Shown one piece after another: positions 3,254-31,610 of a stretch of 38,939 nucleotides of DNA (position 1 is the stretch's first letter; the number at the start of each line of letters is the position of its first letter). The position numbers and the translations under genes are program-made. Location of the stretch: the NCBI GenBank assembly GCA_945865315.1, contig CAMBDK010000017.1, positions 1-38,939 on the forward strand, in the 5' to 3' direction. The DNA is from Chitinophaga pinensis. Lineage in GTDB: Bacteria > Bacteroidota > Bacteroidia > 2-12-FULL-35-15. The notes under the pieces were generated by a model, which searched no databases, was not told where the DNA came from, and worked only from the letters and a program-made list of their open reading frames with translations.

Positions 3254-3448
3254 TAAAAACAGATGATTTCATTATTTTTAAAAAACATCCTAATGAAAAC
3301 GCGCGTGAGGAAGGTACAAAAGCGATGCAGGGTTGCAGGTGGGGAAGAATCGTTTGTTCTTGATTTTTTGTTTCTTTTGTATAAAGACAAAAGAAAAACA
3401 CACAGTTTTTAAACAATTTAATTTGCAGTTTTATATCGAAAACTTCAC
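3254..3448 (+). repeat. MITE-like dispersed element, copy 1 (left end missing)
   Basis: This copy matches copy 2 from the motif TAAAAACAGATG onward and ends in CTTCAC at 3448, but lacks about the first 41 bp of the element. It keeps hairpin 2: TTTCTTTTGT, loop ATAAAG, ACAAAAGAAA. The left arm of hairpin 1 has drifted (GGTACAAAAG rather than GAACAAAAG). It shares this drift with copy 2, so the two belong to one subfamily. It is followed by TTA, which is also the left flank of copy 2. Confidence 0.85.
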
Positions 3449-3451
3449 TTA

Positions 3452-3710
3452 GTAAAGCTTTCAAAATAATTTCGACAAAACACATATATAAATAAAAACA
3501 GATGGTTTCATTATTTTAAAAAAACATATTAATGAAAACGCGCGTGAGGAAGGTGCAAAAGCGATGCAGGGTTGCAGGTGGGGAGGAATCGTTTGTTCTT
3601 GGTTTTTTGTTTCTGAAGCCTGCCCTGAGCTTGTCGAAGGGTATCAAGACAAAAGAAAAAAACACAGTTTTTAAACAATTTAATTTGCAGTGTTATATCG
3701 AAAACTTCAC
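3452..3710 (+). repeat. MITE-like dispersed element, copy 2 (full length, with internal replacement)
   Basis: Full element from GTAAAGC to CTTCAC, flanked by an exact TTA direct repeat (3449-3451 and 3711-3713). At 259 bp it is 20 bp longer than copies 3 and 4. The extra length comes from a short motif, CCCTGAGCTTGTCGAAGGG (3623-3641), that replaces the 5' arm of hairpin 2. The open frame at 3532-3714 runs through the element and I do not treat it as a gene. Confidence 0.88.
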
Positions 3711-5290: not shown

Positions 5291-5529
5291 GTTAAGCTTT
5301 CAAAATAATTTCGACAAAACAGATACATTAATAAAAACAAATGATTCCATTTTTTTTGCAAAAAACATCCTTATGAAAACGCGATTGAGGAATGAACAAA
5401 AGCGATGCAATGTTGCAGGTGTGGAGGAGTCGTTTTTTCTTGATTTTTTGTTTCTTTTGTAGCAAGACAAAAGAAAAACAGACGGTTTTTGAACCATTTA
5501 ATTTGCGGCATTTATTTCGAAAACTTCAC
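5291..5529 (+). repeat. MITE-like dispersed element, copy 3, abutting the xerD stop
   Basis: A 239-bp full-length copy from GTTAAGC to CTTCAC. Its outer 28 bases match each other as an inverted repeat at 21 of 28 positions. It is flanked by an exact TAA repeat, 5288-5290 (the xerD stop codon) and 5530-5532. Hairpin 2 is intact (TTTCTTTTGT, loop AGCAAG, ACAAAAGAAA). Hairpin 1 is weaker than in copies 4 and 5. Confidence 0.9.
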
Positions 5530-13804: not shown

Positions 13805-14923
13805 ATGAAACGTTTTATTCTGGTATTCTTAATTGCAATTGGTATAATTTCCCCCTCTTTTTCTCAGGAAATTGGTGATAATTATTATAAAAAAGGAACA
13901 GCAAACTCATTAGCAGGAAATTATAAAGAAGCTATTAAAGATTATGATAAAGCAATAAAATATAATCCGGAAGAGTCTTTATATTTTTTTGCACGCGCAT
14001 TAGCAAAAAACGAATTAGAAAATTATGAAGGAGCGATAAAGGATTATACCACTTTTATTAGTCTAAAACCAGACAACTATGAAGGATATTTTTATAGAGG
14101 GTATATAAAAGATCTAATAGGTGATTTTGAAAATGCTATTAAAGATTACGATAAGGCAATAAAATTAAACCCCGATTTTACTCAAGCTTATCATAACAGA
14201 GCTACTGCAAAAGATAAAATAGGTGACTATTCTGGCGCAGTAGAAGATTACAGCAACGCTATTCTTGCCAAACCTGATTATTTCACTTATCTTCATAGAG
14301 GAAATGCTGAATTTCAACTAAAGGAATATGCTAGTGCAATTCGTGATTATGATAAAGCAATGGAAGTAAATCCTACCGACTTTGAAGTGTTTTTTTTACG
14401 AGGGAATGCAAAAAACGGAATTAAAGATTATGCTGGTGCGATGAAAGATTTTGAAAAAGCAATTGATTTCCGGCCTGATGATGCAAAAATATATAATGAA
14501 AAAGCAAAAGCTGGCATCGGATTAAATAATTTCAAATCTGCTTTTCATGACCTTAATATTGCCATAGAACTTAAATGGGATTACCCAGCACCTTATTACA
14601 ATAGAGCATATGCAAGAAGTGAGTTGGAAGACTATTCCTTAGCTTTGCTTGATTGCAACAAAGCAATTGACTTAAATCCGGAATTTTATGAGGTTTATAA
14701 TTTAAGGGGATTAATGAAAGGTAAATTGAACGATTTTAAAGGTGAAATATTCGATTTTAATAAAGCTATTGAATTAAAACCAGATTTCGCCGAAGCATAT
14801 TATAATAGAGGCATTTCTAAAACAAGGACTAATGATAAGGAAGGTGCCTGCCTGGATTTAAATAAATCACAAACATTAGGCAACTTTAAAGCGGAAGAAA
14901 TTATTAAACAATATTGTAAATAA
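13805..14923 (+). CDS. Exported TPR-repeat protein
   Basis: A 372-residue protein with a signal peptide (1-21, ending SFSQ), followed almost entirely by tetratricopeptide repeats, about ten units of 34 residues. Recurring signatures are GNYKEAIKDYDKAIKYNPE (about 38-56), GDFENAIKDYDKAIKLNPDF (near 106-125) and the same pattern near residues 175, 210, 277 and 312. TPR arrays are binding scaffolds. In Bacteroidota many exported ones have unknown partners. The C-terminus (KEGACLDLNKSQTLG) resembles the Sel1-like caps seen in such proteins. It is a single gene with its own promoter. Confidence 0.88.
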   Translation: MKRFILVFLIAIGIISPSFSQEIGDNYYKKGTANSLAGNYKEAIKDYDKAIKYNPEESLYFFARALAKNELENYEGAIKDYTTFISLKPDNYEGYFYRGYIKDLIGDFENAIKDYDKAIKLNPDFTQAYHNRATAKDKIGDYSGAVEDYSNAILAKPDYFTYLHRGNAEFQLKEYASAIRDYDKAMEVNPTDFEVFFLRGNAKNGIKDYAGAMKDFEKAIDFRPDDAKIYNEKAKAGIGLNNFKSAFHDLNIAIELKWDYPAPYYNRAYARSELEDYSLALLDCNKAIDLNPEFYEVYNLRGLMKGKLNDFKGEIFDFNKAIELKPDFAEAYYNRGISKTRTNDKEGACLDLNKSQTLGNFKAEEIIKQYCK

Positions 14924-15630: not shown

Positions 15631-16860
15631 ATGACAAATTCTTCTAACAAGCGAAAAATATTTAACGATCCCATTTATGGTTTCGTATCTACTCCATTTG
15701 AAATAATATTTGATTTAATTGAGCACCCCTACTTTCAGCGTTTACGGAGGATAAAACAGCTAGGACTAACAAATTTAGTTTACCCAGGATCCTTGCATAC
15801 TCGCTTCCATCATGCAATGGGTGCGATGCATTTAATGGGACTAGCCATTGAAGAAATAAGATCAAAAGGTCATGAAATTACCGAGGACGAAGCCAAAGCT
15901 GTAACAATTGCAATTCTTCTGCACGACATAGGCCACGGGCCTTTTTCTCATGCTTTGGAACATAGTATTGTTAATAATATTACCCATGAAGATATTTCAC
16001 AATTATTCATGGATCGCCTAAACATAGAATTTAATGGAGAGCTTACTTTAGCAATTAAAATATTCAAAAATAATTATCACAAAAAATTTTTACATCAATT
16101 GGTTTCAAGTCAGTTAGATATGGATCGGCTAGATTATCTGAAACGCGATAGTTTTTTTACAGGTGTTTCAGAAGGAGTAATCAGTTCCGACCGAATCATT
16201 AAAATGTTGAATGTTGTTAACGACCAGCTAACAATAGAGGCGAAAGGAATATATTCCATCGAAAAATTTATTATTGCTCGCAGGTTGATGTATTGGCAGG
16301 TATATTTACACAAAACAGTTTTGAGTGCCGAAAATTTATTAGTGAATATTTTAAAATATGCCAAAGAATTAGCGAAAAATAACGTAGAACTCTTTTGTAC
16401 CCCCCCTTTAAAAACATTTTTATATAATCAGTTTAGTAAAATTGATTTTACTAATAAACCTGAATTATTAGATGCATTTGCATTGCTTGATGATTACGAT
16501 ATAATGACTTCAATCAAAGTTTGGACCGCCCATACAGACAATGTTCTATCCATGCTTTGCAAACATTTAGTTAACAGAAAATTGTTTAAAGTAGAAATGC
16601 AAGGCATGGCATTCGATAAAATAAAAATTGAAAAACTGAAAAATGAAATAAAAAAAAGACTGAACTTAAACGATAACGAAGTAAACTATTTTGTGCTTTC
16701 TGGCTATGTAGCAAATGATGCATACCGGGGCGACAGAATTAGTATAAATATATTATTTAAAGATGGTACTGTTTTAGACATAGCCAAAGCCTCCGATCAA
16801 TTGAATATTGAGGTTTTAGAAAAAACAGTGAAAAAGTATTATTTGTGTTATCCAAAATAA
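15631..16860 (+). CDS. HD-domain phosphohydrolase (SAMHD1/dGTPase-like)
   Basis: A 409-residue HD-superfamily hydrolase. Metal-binding residues are His60/His61 (RFHHAMG), His98-Asp99 (LLHDIGHGPFSH) and the distal Asp in SQLDMDRLDYLKRD. The start KIFNDPIYGFV and the segment YFQRLRRIKQLGLTNLVYPG are typical of the SAMHD1-like branch, whose members hydrolyse dNTPs or related nucleotides. The C-terminal half (DVEV-type region after about 230) carries LMYWQVYLHKTVLSAENLL, also conserved in this group. It is cytoplasmic. The substrate is not known, and no defence genes are linked to it. It is a single gene. Confidence 0.9.
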   Translation: MTNSSNKRKIFNDPIYGFVSTPFEIIFDLIEHPYFQRLRRIKQLGLTNLVYPGSLHTRFHHAMGAMHLMGLAIEEIRSKGHEITEDEAKAVTIAILLHDIGHGPFSHALEHSIVNNITHEDISQLFMDRLNIEFNGELTLAIKIFKNNYHKKFLHQLVSSQLDMDRLDYLKRDSFFTGVSEGVISSDRIIKMLNVVNDQLTIEAKGIYSIEKFIIARRLMYWQVYLHKTVLSAENLLVNILKYAKELAKNNVELFCTPPLKTFLYNQFSKIDFTNKPELLDAFALLDDYDIMTSIKVWTAHTDNVLSMLCKHLVNRKLFKVEMQGMAFDKIKIEKLKNEIKKRLNLNDNEVNYFVLSGYVANDAYRGDRISINILFKDGTVLDIAKASDQLNIEVLEKTVKKYYLCYPK

Positions 16861-16994
16861 ATCAGAATAGCTTTTTAACAGGATTTAAAAATTATTGCAA
16901 ATTTCACCCGTTCCAAAAATATAACAATACAAGCTGTTTTACACCTTAGATTGCTTATACTATATGTGGTATAAAATAACGCATTTAAAACACG

Positions 16995-17051
16995 AAATTG
17001 GCAATAAGCAAATGGCAATAAGCAATAAATAATAAGCAAAATTGCCAATTT
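16995..17051. repeat. Inverted repeat enclosing short GCAATAAGCAA repeats
   Basis: AAATTGGCAAT (16995-17005) and its exact complement ATTGCCAATTT (17041-17051) flank 35 bp made of near-tandem units of GGCAATAAGCAA type. It lies between the HD gene and element copy 4. It lacks the T run of a terminator. The rest of 16861-17085 holds nothing I recognise. Confidence 0.6.
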
Positions 17052-17085
17052 GTGGAATGCGATAATTTATCCCGTTTTTAGTATA

Positions 17086-17324
17086 GTAAAGCTTTCAAAA
17101 TAATTTCGACAAAATAGATATATCAATAAAAACAGATGACTTCATTTTTTTGCAAAAAAACATCCTTATGAAAACGCGCTTGAGGAATGAACAAAAGCGA
17201 TGAAGTGTTGCAAGTGGGGAGGAATCTTTTGTTCTTGATTTTTTGTTTCTTTTGTATCAAGACAAAAGAAAAACACACAGTTTTTTAACCATTTAATTTG
17301 CGGGAGTTATTTCAAAAACTTCAC
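17086..17324 (+). repeat. MITE-like dispersed element, copy 4, at the rimO promoter
   Basis: A 239-bp copy with ends GTAAAGC and CTTCAC; the terminal 28 bases pair as an inverted repeat at 20 of 28 positions. The flanks are ATA (17083-17085) and TTA (17325-17327), a near but not exact 3-bp repeat. Both hairpins are well formed: hairpin 1 GAACAAAAG (17189-17197) with CTTTTGTTC (17226-17234), and hairpin 2 TTTCTTTTGT (17246-17255), loop ATCAAG, ACAAAAGAAA (17262-17271). Its last bases adjoin the rimO -7 box. Confidence 0.9.
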
Positions 17325-17325
17325 T

Positions 17326-17333
17326 TATCTTTG
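17326..17333 (+). promoter_or_regulatory. rimO -7 box directly beside element copy 4
   Basis: TATCTTTG is a perfect TAnnTTTG box that starts one base past the element's direct-repeat boundary. The only TTTG upstream (17297-17300) is inside the element, at a spacing of 25 bp, longer than usual. Transcription would start near 17339, about 16 nt before the TTG start of rimO at 17355. Confidence 0.5.
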
Positions 17334-17354
17334 TTAGGAAAAACAATAAAACAA

Positions 17355-18665
17355 TTGAAAACAAAAACACTTAAAAAAAATAAAGTCAATGTAGTTACTC
17401 TCGGCTGTTCAAAAAATATTGTGGACAGTGAAGTATTAATGGGACAATTAAAGGCAAATAATTTTGTTGTGCAGCACGAAAGTACAGATGATGATTCAAG
17501 CATTGTAATTATAAATACTTGCGGATTTATTGACAATGCCAAGCAAGAAAGTATCGATACCATCATTCGCTATGCAAACGCAAAAGAAGAAGGCTTGGTT
17601 CATAAAGTTTATGTTACCGGCTGCCTGAGTGAACGCTATAGAACTGAATTAGAAAAAGAAATCCCCAATATCGATGGGTATTTTGGCACCCGAGAGTTGC
17701 CTCGATTATTAAAAACATTAAAAGCGGATTACAAACACGAGTTAATAGGTGAGCGATTATTAACTACCCCTCATCATTATTCTTATTTTAAAATTTCAGA
17801 AGGTTGTGACAGACCCTGTTCTTTTTGTGCAATACCATTAATGCGTGGCGTGCACATTTCTCGACCAATTGAAGATTTAGTAAAAGAGGCGAAACATCTT
17901 GCAAAAAATGGCACCAAAGAGTTAATGCTTATTGCTCAGGACTTAACTTACTATGGTTTGGATATTTACAAAAAACGTAACCTATCCGAATTACTTAAAA
18001 ATCTTTCAGATGTTGAAGGTATTGAATGGATTCGTTTGCATTATGCTTTTCCAAGCGGTTTCCCTATGGATGTTTTAGATGTAATGAATGAACGTAAAAA
18101 TATTTGCAAATACCTGGATATGCCTTTGCAACATATTACTGATAATATGTTGAAAAGCATGCGCAGAGGAACTACCAAGAAAAGAACTATTGATTTGGTG
18201 AATGAAATACGAGATAAAGTTCCTGGAATTACCATTAGAACAACATTGATAGCAGGCTACCCGGGCGAAACAGAAAAAGACCACCAAGAAATGTTGGAAT
18301 GGATAGAACAGACAAAATTCGATCGTTTAGGTATTTTCGCCTATTCACACGAAGAAAATACCAGCGCTTTTTTACTTAAAGATAATGTTTCCGCTAAAGT
18401 TAAACAAAGCCGAACCGAAGCTGTAATGGCTCTTCAGCAAGGTATTTCGCTTAAGCTAAACCAACAAAAAATAGGTAATACTTATAAAGTTCTTTTTGAT
18501 AAAAAGGAAGGGGATTATTTTATTGGCCGTACCGAATTTGATTCTCCCGAAGTAGATAATGAGGTACTTGTAAAAGCAGATCAAAATTATATACGTATTG
18601 GTGATTTTGCAAATGTTGAAATTATCGCTGCCGAGGATTATGATTTATTTGGAAATGCAATTTAA
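17355..18665 (+). CDS. rimO: Ribosomal protein S12 methylthiotransferase RimO
   Basis: A radical-SAM enzyme that methylthiolates an aspartate of ribosomal protein S12. I place the start at the TTG at 17355 (436 residues, MKTKTLKKNK...). The frame stays open upstream to 17298, but that part is element copy 4 and would lie before the predicted transcription start. The UPF0004 domain holds the three cluster cysteines Cys18 (LGCSKN), Cys56 (NTCGF) and Cys90 (VTGC). The radical-SAM motif is Cys151-x3-Cys155-x2-Cys158 (GCDRPCSFC). A TRAM domain forms the C-terminus (FIGRTEFDSPEVDNEV). The sequence LGCSKNIVDSEVLMGQL and RRGTTKKRT distinguish RimO from MiaB. Confidence 0.95.
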   Translation: MKTKTLKKNKVNVVTLGCSKNIVDSEVLMGQLKANNFVVQHESTDDDSSIVIINTCGFIDNAKQESIDTIIRYANAKEEGLVHKVYVTGCLSERYRTELEKEIPNIDGYFGTRELPRLLKTLKADYKHELIGERLLTTPHHYSYFKISEGCDRPCSFCAIPLMRGVHISRPIEDLVKEAKHLAKNGTKELMLIAQDLTYYGLDIYKKRNLSELLKNLSDVEGIEWIRLHYAFPSGFPMDVLDVMNERKNICKYLDMPLQHITDNMLKSMRRGTTKKRTIDLVNEIRDKVPGITIRTTLIAGYPGETEKDHQEMLEWIEQTKFDRLGIFAYSHEENTSAFLLKDNVSAKVKQSRTEAVMALQQGISLKLNQQKIGNTYKVLFDKKEGDYFIGRTEFDSPEVDNEVLVKADQNYIRIGDFANVEIIAAEDYDLFGNAI

Positions 18666-18705: not shown

Positions 18706-18901
18706 GTGGAATATAGAGGTTAATCCAATTGAGCCTATCTAAAAGAAAAAGATGTTATTTTAACAAAATAAATTTATACACGTGTGCGGGAGGTCTGAAC
18801 AAACGCAATTATGTGTTGCCTGTGCGGAGGAATTGCTTGTTATTGAATTTTTGTTTCTTTTTTTTAAAGAAAAAATAAAAACACACAATTTTATTTTAAA
18901 A
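18706..18901 (+). repeat. Strongly diverged copy of the dispersed element (core 18778-18890)
   Basis: The core aligns with the element through GTGTGCGGGAGG, TGCGGAGGAATTG and TTTTTGTTTC, ending with AAAACACAC. Hairpin 1 is kept with a changed sequence: AACAA, a 2-nt bulge, then GCAATT (18798-18810) pairs with AATTGCTTGTT (18831-18841). The segment is bracketed by an exact 11-bp direct repeat, TTATACTCTAA (18695-18705 and 18902-18912). The remaining intergenic DNA up to the protease gene (18913-19061) shows nothing recognisable. Confidence 0.55.
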
Positions 18902-31303: not shown

Positions 31304-31373
31304 GCATTAGTAATTTTATCTCTTTACCCCAAAATATTACTATACAAAATTATTCCCTAAAAAATTTGTTTAG

Positions 31374-31610
31374 GTGAAGTTTCGAAATAACTCCCGCAAA
31401 TTAAATGGTTCAAAAGCTGTGTGTTTTTCTTTTGTCTTGATACAAAAGAAACAAAAAATCATGAACAAACGATTCCTTCCCGCCTGCAACCCTGCATCGC
31501 GTTTGTTCATTCCTCACGCGCGTTGTCATAAGGATATTTTTTGCAAAAAAATGAAATCATCTGTTTTTATTAATATATCTGTTTTGTTGAAATTATTTTG
31601 AAAGCTTTAC
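31374..31610 (-). repeat. MITE-like dispersed element, copy 5 (inverted)
   Basis: A 237-bp copy in the opposite orientation, with an exact TAG direct repeat on both sides (31371-31373 and 31611-31613). It has the longest hairpin 1 of the family: ATGAACAAACG (31461-31471) and CGTTTGTTCAT (31500-31510) form an 11-bp perfect stem. Hairpin 2 is intact with loop ATCAAG. It lies between convergent rfbB and the beta-barrel protein gene. The open frame 31374-31601 is a by-product of the repeat. Confidence 0.9.

Follow-up and report, generated by a model that had tools for sequence, protein, structure and literature searches.

The window (the whole stretch of DNA that was analysed, 38,939 nucleotides) is contig C17 of an assembly of 3.27 Mb in 195 contigs. 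A MITE of approximately 239 bp, counted here as copy 4 of the window, lies at 17086-17324 on the + strand, with TIR matches at 17086-17103 and 17307-17324, and is homologous along its entire length to other copies in the genome. The element is intergenic: a + strand ORF ends at 16860, the next + strand ORF is called from a TTG at 17298, and every ORF inside 17086-17297 is shorter than 100 aa. The left TIR, GTAAAGCTTTCAAAATAATT, occupies 17086-17105 on the + strand, and the right TIR, GTGAAGTTTTTGAAATAAC.. when read inward on the - strand, occupies 17305-17324. The target triplets of this copy are ATA on the left (17083-17085) and TTA on the right (17325-17327), with two of the three bases kept.

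The conserved core of the element (17166-17279, + strand), which is common to other species without these TIRs, consists of two modules. Module A is a hairpin with a free stem sequence and a conserved loop, and its stem 1 is formed here by GAACAAAAG (17189-17197) and CTTTTGTTC (17226-17234), the final C of which doubles as the first base of CTTGAT. In module B, CUUGAW is followed by a U-rich linker and then by a hairpin with a loop of six bases, and this loop pairs with CUUGAW to form an H-type pseudoknot. In copy 4, strand S1 of the pseudoknot, CTTGAT (17234-17239), is followed by the T-rich linker L1, TTTTTG (17240-17245), and then by hairpin 2 (S2), whose stem is formed by TTTCTTTTGT (17246-17255) and ACAAAAGAAA (17262-17271). 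The loop between them, ATCAAG (17256-17261), provides the second strand of S1. All of these strands are given on the + strand. The two hairpins had been described in an earlier note on this DNA and are confirmed by the sequence, and that note had missed the 239-bp MITE, its target duplication and the interlocked helix.

A BLAST search of the window with the 141-bp repeat yields six copies, and one core pattern with up to three mismatches has five matches against a shuffle mean of 0.15, in agreement with the earlier description of a recurring element. Copy 1 (3271-3448, + strand) has a right TIR at 3431-3448 and an unrecognisable left TIR, and copy 2 (3452-3710, + strand) adjoins it head to tail, its hairpin 2 broken by a REP-like insert at about 3615-3640. 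Copy 3 (5291-5529, + strand) has the target duplication TAA on both sides, and copy 5 (31373-31610, - strand), the right end of which was placed from the alignment, has CTA on both sides. A diverged core with other flanks lies at 18767-18893 on the + strand; its stem at 18798 can indeed be drawn, as had been proposed, from AACAA plus GCAATT against AATTGCTTGTT with a 2-nt bulge, and its ends and flanks resemble, by eye, those of locus L087 of genome G002. A REP-like sequence of the CCTGAGCTTGTCGAAGG type, or a relative of it, sits in the 5' strand of hairpin 2 and replaces part of the T run in copy 2 and in four further loci of this genome (L317, L325, L327 and L337). Elsewhere in the window, the DNA of a 372-aa ORF (13805-14923) repeats internally at distances of about 102-204 nt, which are multiples of 34 codons.

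Alignment of 51 copies with their flanks reveals a unit of about 239 bp that runs from GTAAAGCTTTCAAAATAATT to TTATTTCGAAAACTTCAC, with imperfect inverted repeats as its ends. The genome search with the repeat gave at least 45 matches, and 40 of 233 first-look candidates were scored. The TIR pattern has 353 matches with up to three mismatches, versus 102 for the reversed control, and the 38-nt 3' module (module B) is present in approximately 139 genomic copies at the same threshold (56 on one strand and 83 on the other; the reversed pattern gives 0). An exact 3-bp target duplication flanks 28 of 45 copies, compared with a mean of 10.3 and a maximum of 19 in 2000 shuffles, and none of the 45 agrees at 4 bp; of the 51 aligned copies, this count omits two L003 entries that repeat L019 and four copies without 8-nt flanks. 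The duplicated triplets are TTA, TAA, CTA and a few others, and tandem copies have a triplet in common. The 239-bp element is therefore a MITE: it is short, non-coding, present in many copies and bounded by TIRs and by a target duplication with a fixed length of 3 bp. Several copies are located at contig ends, and such copies may fragment assemblies.

Substitutions within the genome and covariation between species

The earlier note had based its case for selection on paired changes among the window copies, in particular an A-T pair of stem 1 that had become C-G. When this pair is read in 49 copies of the genome, it is C-G in 36, A-G in nine, and A-T, C-A, A-C and T-G in one copy each, so that the A-T state is that of a single copy and most copies with A at this position are mismatched. 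Because the core had served as the query for these 49 copies, a second set was fetched by perfect TIRs alone, which gave 40 stretches, of which 39 near-full copies were used. In these 39 copies, the change rates are 6.4% in stem 1, 8.9% in loop 1, 5.5% in the arms and 3.9% in hairpin 2, and the comparison of paired with unpaired sites, which the earlier note had named as a refuting test, gives similar rates (odds ratio 0.80, p = 0.06) and does not bear out selection on each copy. Pairing after a change on both sides is found in 1 of 349 cells of stem 1, 1 of 229 of the CTTGAT stem and 0 of 389 of hairpin 2, or 2 of 967 in total. The strong conservation of hairpin 2 that the 49 core-found copies had suggested (0.8% versus 5.0% in the arms) was biased by the core query and was discarded. 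Inside the genome, there is thus little sign that each copy stays folded. The linker L1 is the only segment that resists change in the 39 copies: none of its 195 A/T cells is altered, whereas 107 of 2398 are altered in the arms (p = 0.0005).

Comparison between species was carried out on an alignment (A1) of 54 cores, which were found by sequence profile and not by folding. Two of them are window copies and the other 52 represent 17 further genomes, which makes 18 genomes in all; of 58 full-length cores, six were excluded for disruptive inserts or poor ends. From the 54 cores, RNAalifold predicts both stem 1 and hairpin 2 unprompted, and 10 of the 17 pairs show double changes. The third helix was spotted by eye, as the hairpin 2 loop WTCAAG complements CTTGAW just upstream. 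With the pseudoknot included, 96.8% of the cells of the structure are paired, compared with 81.9% after shuffling and 54-66% when the structure is slid along the alignment, and 175 cells are doubly changed versus 54 in the control.

The covariation was also examined with our own tree-aware script in place of R-scape, using a FastTree tree, 120 simulated alignments in which the per-column change counts were kept, and a G statistic with average-product correction. Of the 7,503 column pairs, only three are significant at E < 0.05 (the test does not resolve E below 0.008). All three fall within the structure, and each helix contains one of them: 97-118 in the pseudoknot, 42-89 in stem 1 and 117-124 in hairpin 2. 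Two more pairs have E = 0.05, and the remaining structure pairs are non-significant, many of them because their columns hardly vary. The fold is therefore strongly supported across species, and the earlier conclusion of selection on a folded RNA or DNA stands on this covariation between species, not on the window copies from which it was drawn.

Separate support for the fold comes from 116 module-B motifs of named genomes, which comprise 15 distinct sequences and so do not represent 116 independent events. The last S1 pair, both sides of which the search pattern left free, is T-A in 71 motifs, A-T in 43 and mismatched in two, and the two inner pairs of hairpin 2 match in 114 and 112 of the 116 (113 if G-U is allowed in the latter). 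Further S1 types, CTTGAC/GTCAAG and CTTGGC/GCCAAG, also occur. A second alignment (A2) was left out of the covariation evidence, as the regular expression that chose most of its sequences required partial pairing. Because the linker between S1' and S2' is only 0-1 nt, a full textbook pseudoknot would be tight, and S1 and S2 may alternate.

Distribution of the core in Bacteroidota

In a search of this genome and its relatives, 47 of 99 genomes and 17 of 58 genera match. Outside this genome, among the matches listed, only positions of about 57-216 of the 244-position query are covered and its ends are not. In alignments within individual genomes, conservation starts near TTAYGAAG.CGCGCGTGAGG and stops after AAAAGAAA or AACACACAG. 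In two loci (L047 of G023 and L093 of G028), the core lies between inverted repeats of a different sequence, about 255 bp apart. From this distribution, we infer that the core predates this MITE and is a structured cassette dispersed over Bacteroidota, and we judge the element to be an unnamed structured repeat that is carried here inside a MITE.

A covariance model of module B finds matches in 68 of 247 genomes of the phylum and 41 of 122 genera, and a scan of one genome per species gives at least 106 stretches; among the matches listed, there are 80 titles, all Bacteroidota save one Balneolaceae record. Several different hairpin bodies, that of the window among them, are situated upstream of module B. 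A second body type, which combines a repeated internal loop, GCGTTAAGAAA / TTTTTAGC, with an apical GTTTGAG...CGAGTT, is found in Chryseobacterium, Pedobacter and Bacteroides luti. A long form of module A, with an extra structured insert of about 75 nt in the loop of hairpin 1, is present in several genomes (L114, L115, L120, L122 and L103). The BOX elements of Streptococcus pneumoniae are likewise modular, with fixed ends and a variable insert, as module A has short and long forms; they belong to another phylum and have another sequence, whereas the element described here has a pseudoknot at its 3' end.

Module B also forms head-to-tail arrays with a spacing of 300-460 bp. In L301, L296, L293 and L282, each array lies in a single intergenic region and has partly unique spacers. 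The arrays were considered as autonomous elements and rejected, as the genes inside differ between arrays; no recurrent cassette gene was found between array copies, where spacers are present. No recurrent neighbour gene stands out among 771 ORFs. In L210, L237 and L247, which are Flavobacteriaceae-type records with similar element bodies, a protein of about 127-166 aa that belongs to no Pfam family begins 15-40 nt after module B.

The plasmid and phage collections contain no match to the 129-nt core of G002, and the viral contigs contain only four stretches with module B. No Rfam family reaches its gathering score in the window or in the loci of 15 relatives (0 in each). At loose E-values, the Rfam matches are at chance level and were dismissed, and the two matches at 12 named loci, BTnc231 and Flavo-1, proved to be neighbours, both lying away from module B. 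No description of the module-B pseudoknot repeat was found in open-licence PMC papers, PMC3733652 included.

Maintenance of the fold and alternative explanations

The best overall explanation, to which we assign a probability of roughly 55%, is an ancient structured core that is borne by a MITE and whose fold is kept for propagation, with RNA as the more likely acting molecule. A putative cut-and-paste (DDE-type) transposase acting in trans would have copied the MITE about 139 times, cutting at the TIRs and duplicating a 3-bp TNA-like target. The fold would be kept since source copies could not spread or last without it, and the host would not need it at each site. The fold is probably kept for propagation and not for a task at each site because the lineages keep every helix by paired changes, whereas in the MITE copies pairs are lost at nearly the rate at which unpaired sites change. 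This contrast is weakened by the choice of the cross-species cores by sequence profile, since such a profile favours copies that are well preserved.

No autonomous element or mobilising enzyme was found among the DDE and Y1 genes that were examined, as their flanks contain no TIR pair and no core, with one exception: of the five DDE_Tnp_1 (PF01609) loci, none has a TIR pair around it, apart from a MITE beside one degenerate gene. The bacterial MITEs covered in PMC3733652 include RUP, NEMIS/Correia, ERIC and Nezha, and the present element resembles the MITEs described there in being short and non-coding and in having TIRs, a target duplication, many intergenic copies and hairpin potential. It differs from them in that its core, which can also have different ends or no such ends at all, is better conserved between species than its TIRs and contains a covarying pseudoknot; its parent IS was not found.

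A role for the host, in which an RNA element transcribed within 3' UTRs or in intergenic stretches would be retained at the sites where it is useful, its pseudoknot blocking 3'-to-5' exonucleases or setting mRNA ends, is an unlikely alternative. REPs in E. coli act in this manner. Naive gene calls place the upstream gene on the same strand for 59 of 89 module-B motifs and the motif between divergent genes for only 8 of 89 (27 of the 116 motifs, which had no called gene on both sides, were dropped), an arrangement that would suit such an element. At a Chryseobacterium orthologous convergent site, moreover, several species keep the element in one to three or more copies, and this persistence also fits a role at the site. 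However, the copies of this genome decay almost neutrally, the genes that adjoin them are mutually unrelated, and no intrinsic terminator or terminator-like site is called in 16800-17420.

Rather unlikely is a signal in single-stranded DNA, in which the hairpins would be read by a Y1/HUH enzyme or a tyrosine recombinase, as REPs are by RAYTs or attC sites by an integron integrase. The free stems and fixed loops would be compatible with this type of recognition, as would the head-to-tail arrays and the inverted pairs found in G026. The folding of single strands is divided: the - strand folds stem 1 well, with stem 1 in the single-sequence minimum free energy structure of 39 of 54 cores compared with 22 of 54 on the + strand, and the 92-nt stretch has a z score of -3.3 against shuffles on the - strand and -1.1 on the + strand, whereas the alignment energy (-14.9 versus -10.9) and the mean folding energy (-31.5 versus -24.8) favour the + strand. 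In the stem cells, G-T exceeds A-C in 36 versus 11 genome-pair events (p = 0.0003; 20 versus 5 in stem 1 and S1), a pattern expected if the + strand pairs as RNA, with the caveat that these counts partly reflect misaligned hairpin-2 columns and few pairs. The same comparison on whole bodies (45 versus 19) was set aside as confounded, since an excess is partly expected from base composition.

The distribution of Y1 genes also speaks against a single-stranded DNA signal. The core is found at 0 of 35 Y1 loci in 12 genomes, and 4 of 15 core-bearing genomes are without a Y1 match. The one strong Y1 (RAYT-like) gene of this genome (L077, 1405-2040) has its own CCCGAAGGG hairpins, which are unrelated to the MITE, and the RAYT was rejected as the mobiliser on these grounds. 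In the definition given by PMC3733652, REPs are palindromes of 20-40 bp with an unpaired GTAG or CGTC foot, and some of the families treated there are without a known transposase; neither tetranucleotide is present at the stem foot in the MITE consensus. The element shares with the REP/BIME sequences and RAYTs of that source the intergenic dispersed palindromes, dimers and arrays, but it is about 110-130 nt long, lacks a tagged foot and a link to Y1, and has interlocked stems.

An RNA of the + strand is thus more likely than single-stranded DNA to be the acting molecule. In such an RNA, the U-rich linker would contact the A-rich strand of hairpin 2. Telomerase RNA provides an example of a pseudoknot in which a U-rich loop lies along an A-rich stem, and the order of S1, U-rich linker, U-rich strand, S1' and A-rich strand is the same here; the likeness lies in this order of strands, and the present element is a genomic repeat and not a single gene.

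A broader proposal, which we consider highly improbable, is that module B represents the 3' tag of phylum-wide short elements mobilised through RNA, as bacterial analogues of SINEs. Different bodies would end in one pseudoknot, possibly with a U-A-U triple helix, a shared machinery would copy or protect the RNA, and MITEs would have captured some of these elements. It is similarly very doubtful that no selection is involved and that strand switching in replication corrects the inverted repeats while the MITE copies them passively, a process with which the covariation alone and the near-neutral decay inside the MITE family are compatible, but which leaves A-G mismatches uncorrected in 9 of 49 copies and does not account for the persistence of a conserved loop, a linker and interlocked S1 and S2 in 41 of 122 genera.

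The element also provides a caution, in that paired changes in a handful of copies can mislead. A compact pseudoknot that is dispersed over Bacteroidota, in up to well over a hundred copies per genome, and for which no match in Rfam or the literature was found, provides a defined target for asking whether small bacterial repeats spread or persist via a folded RNA.
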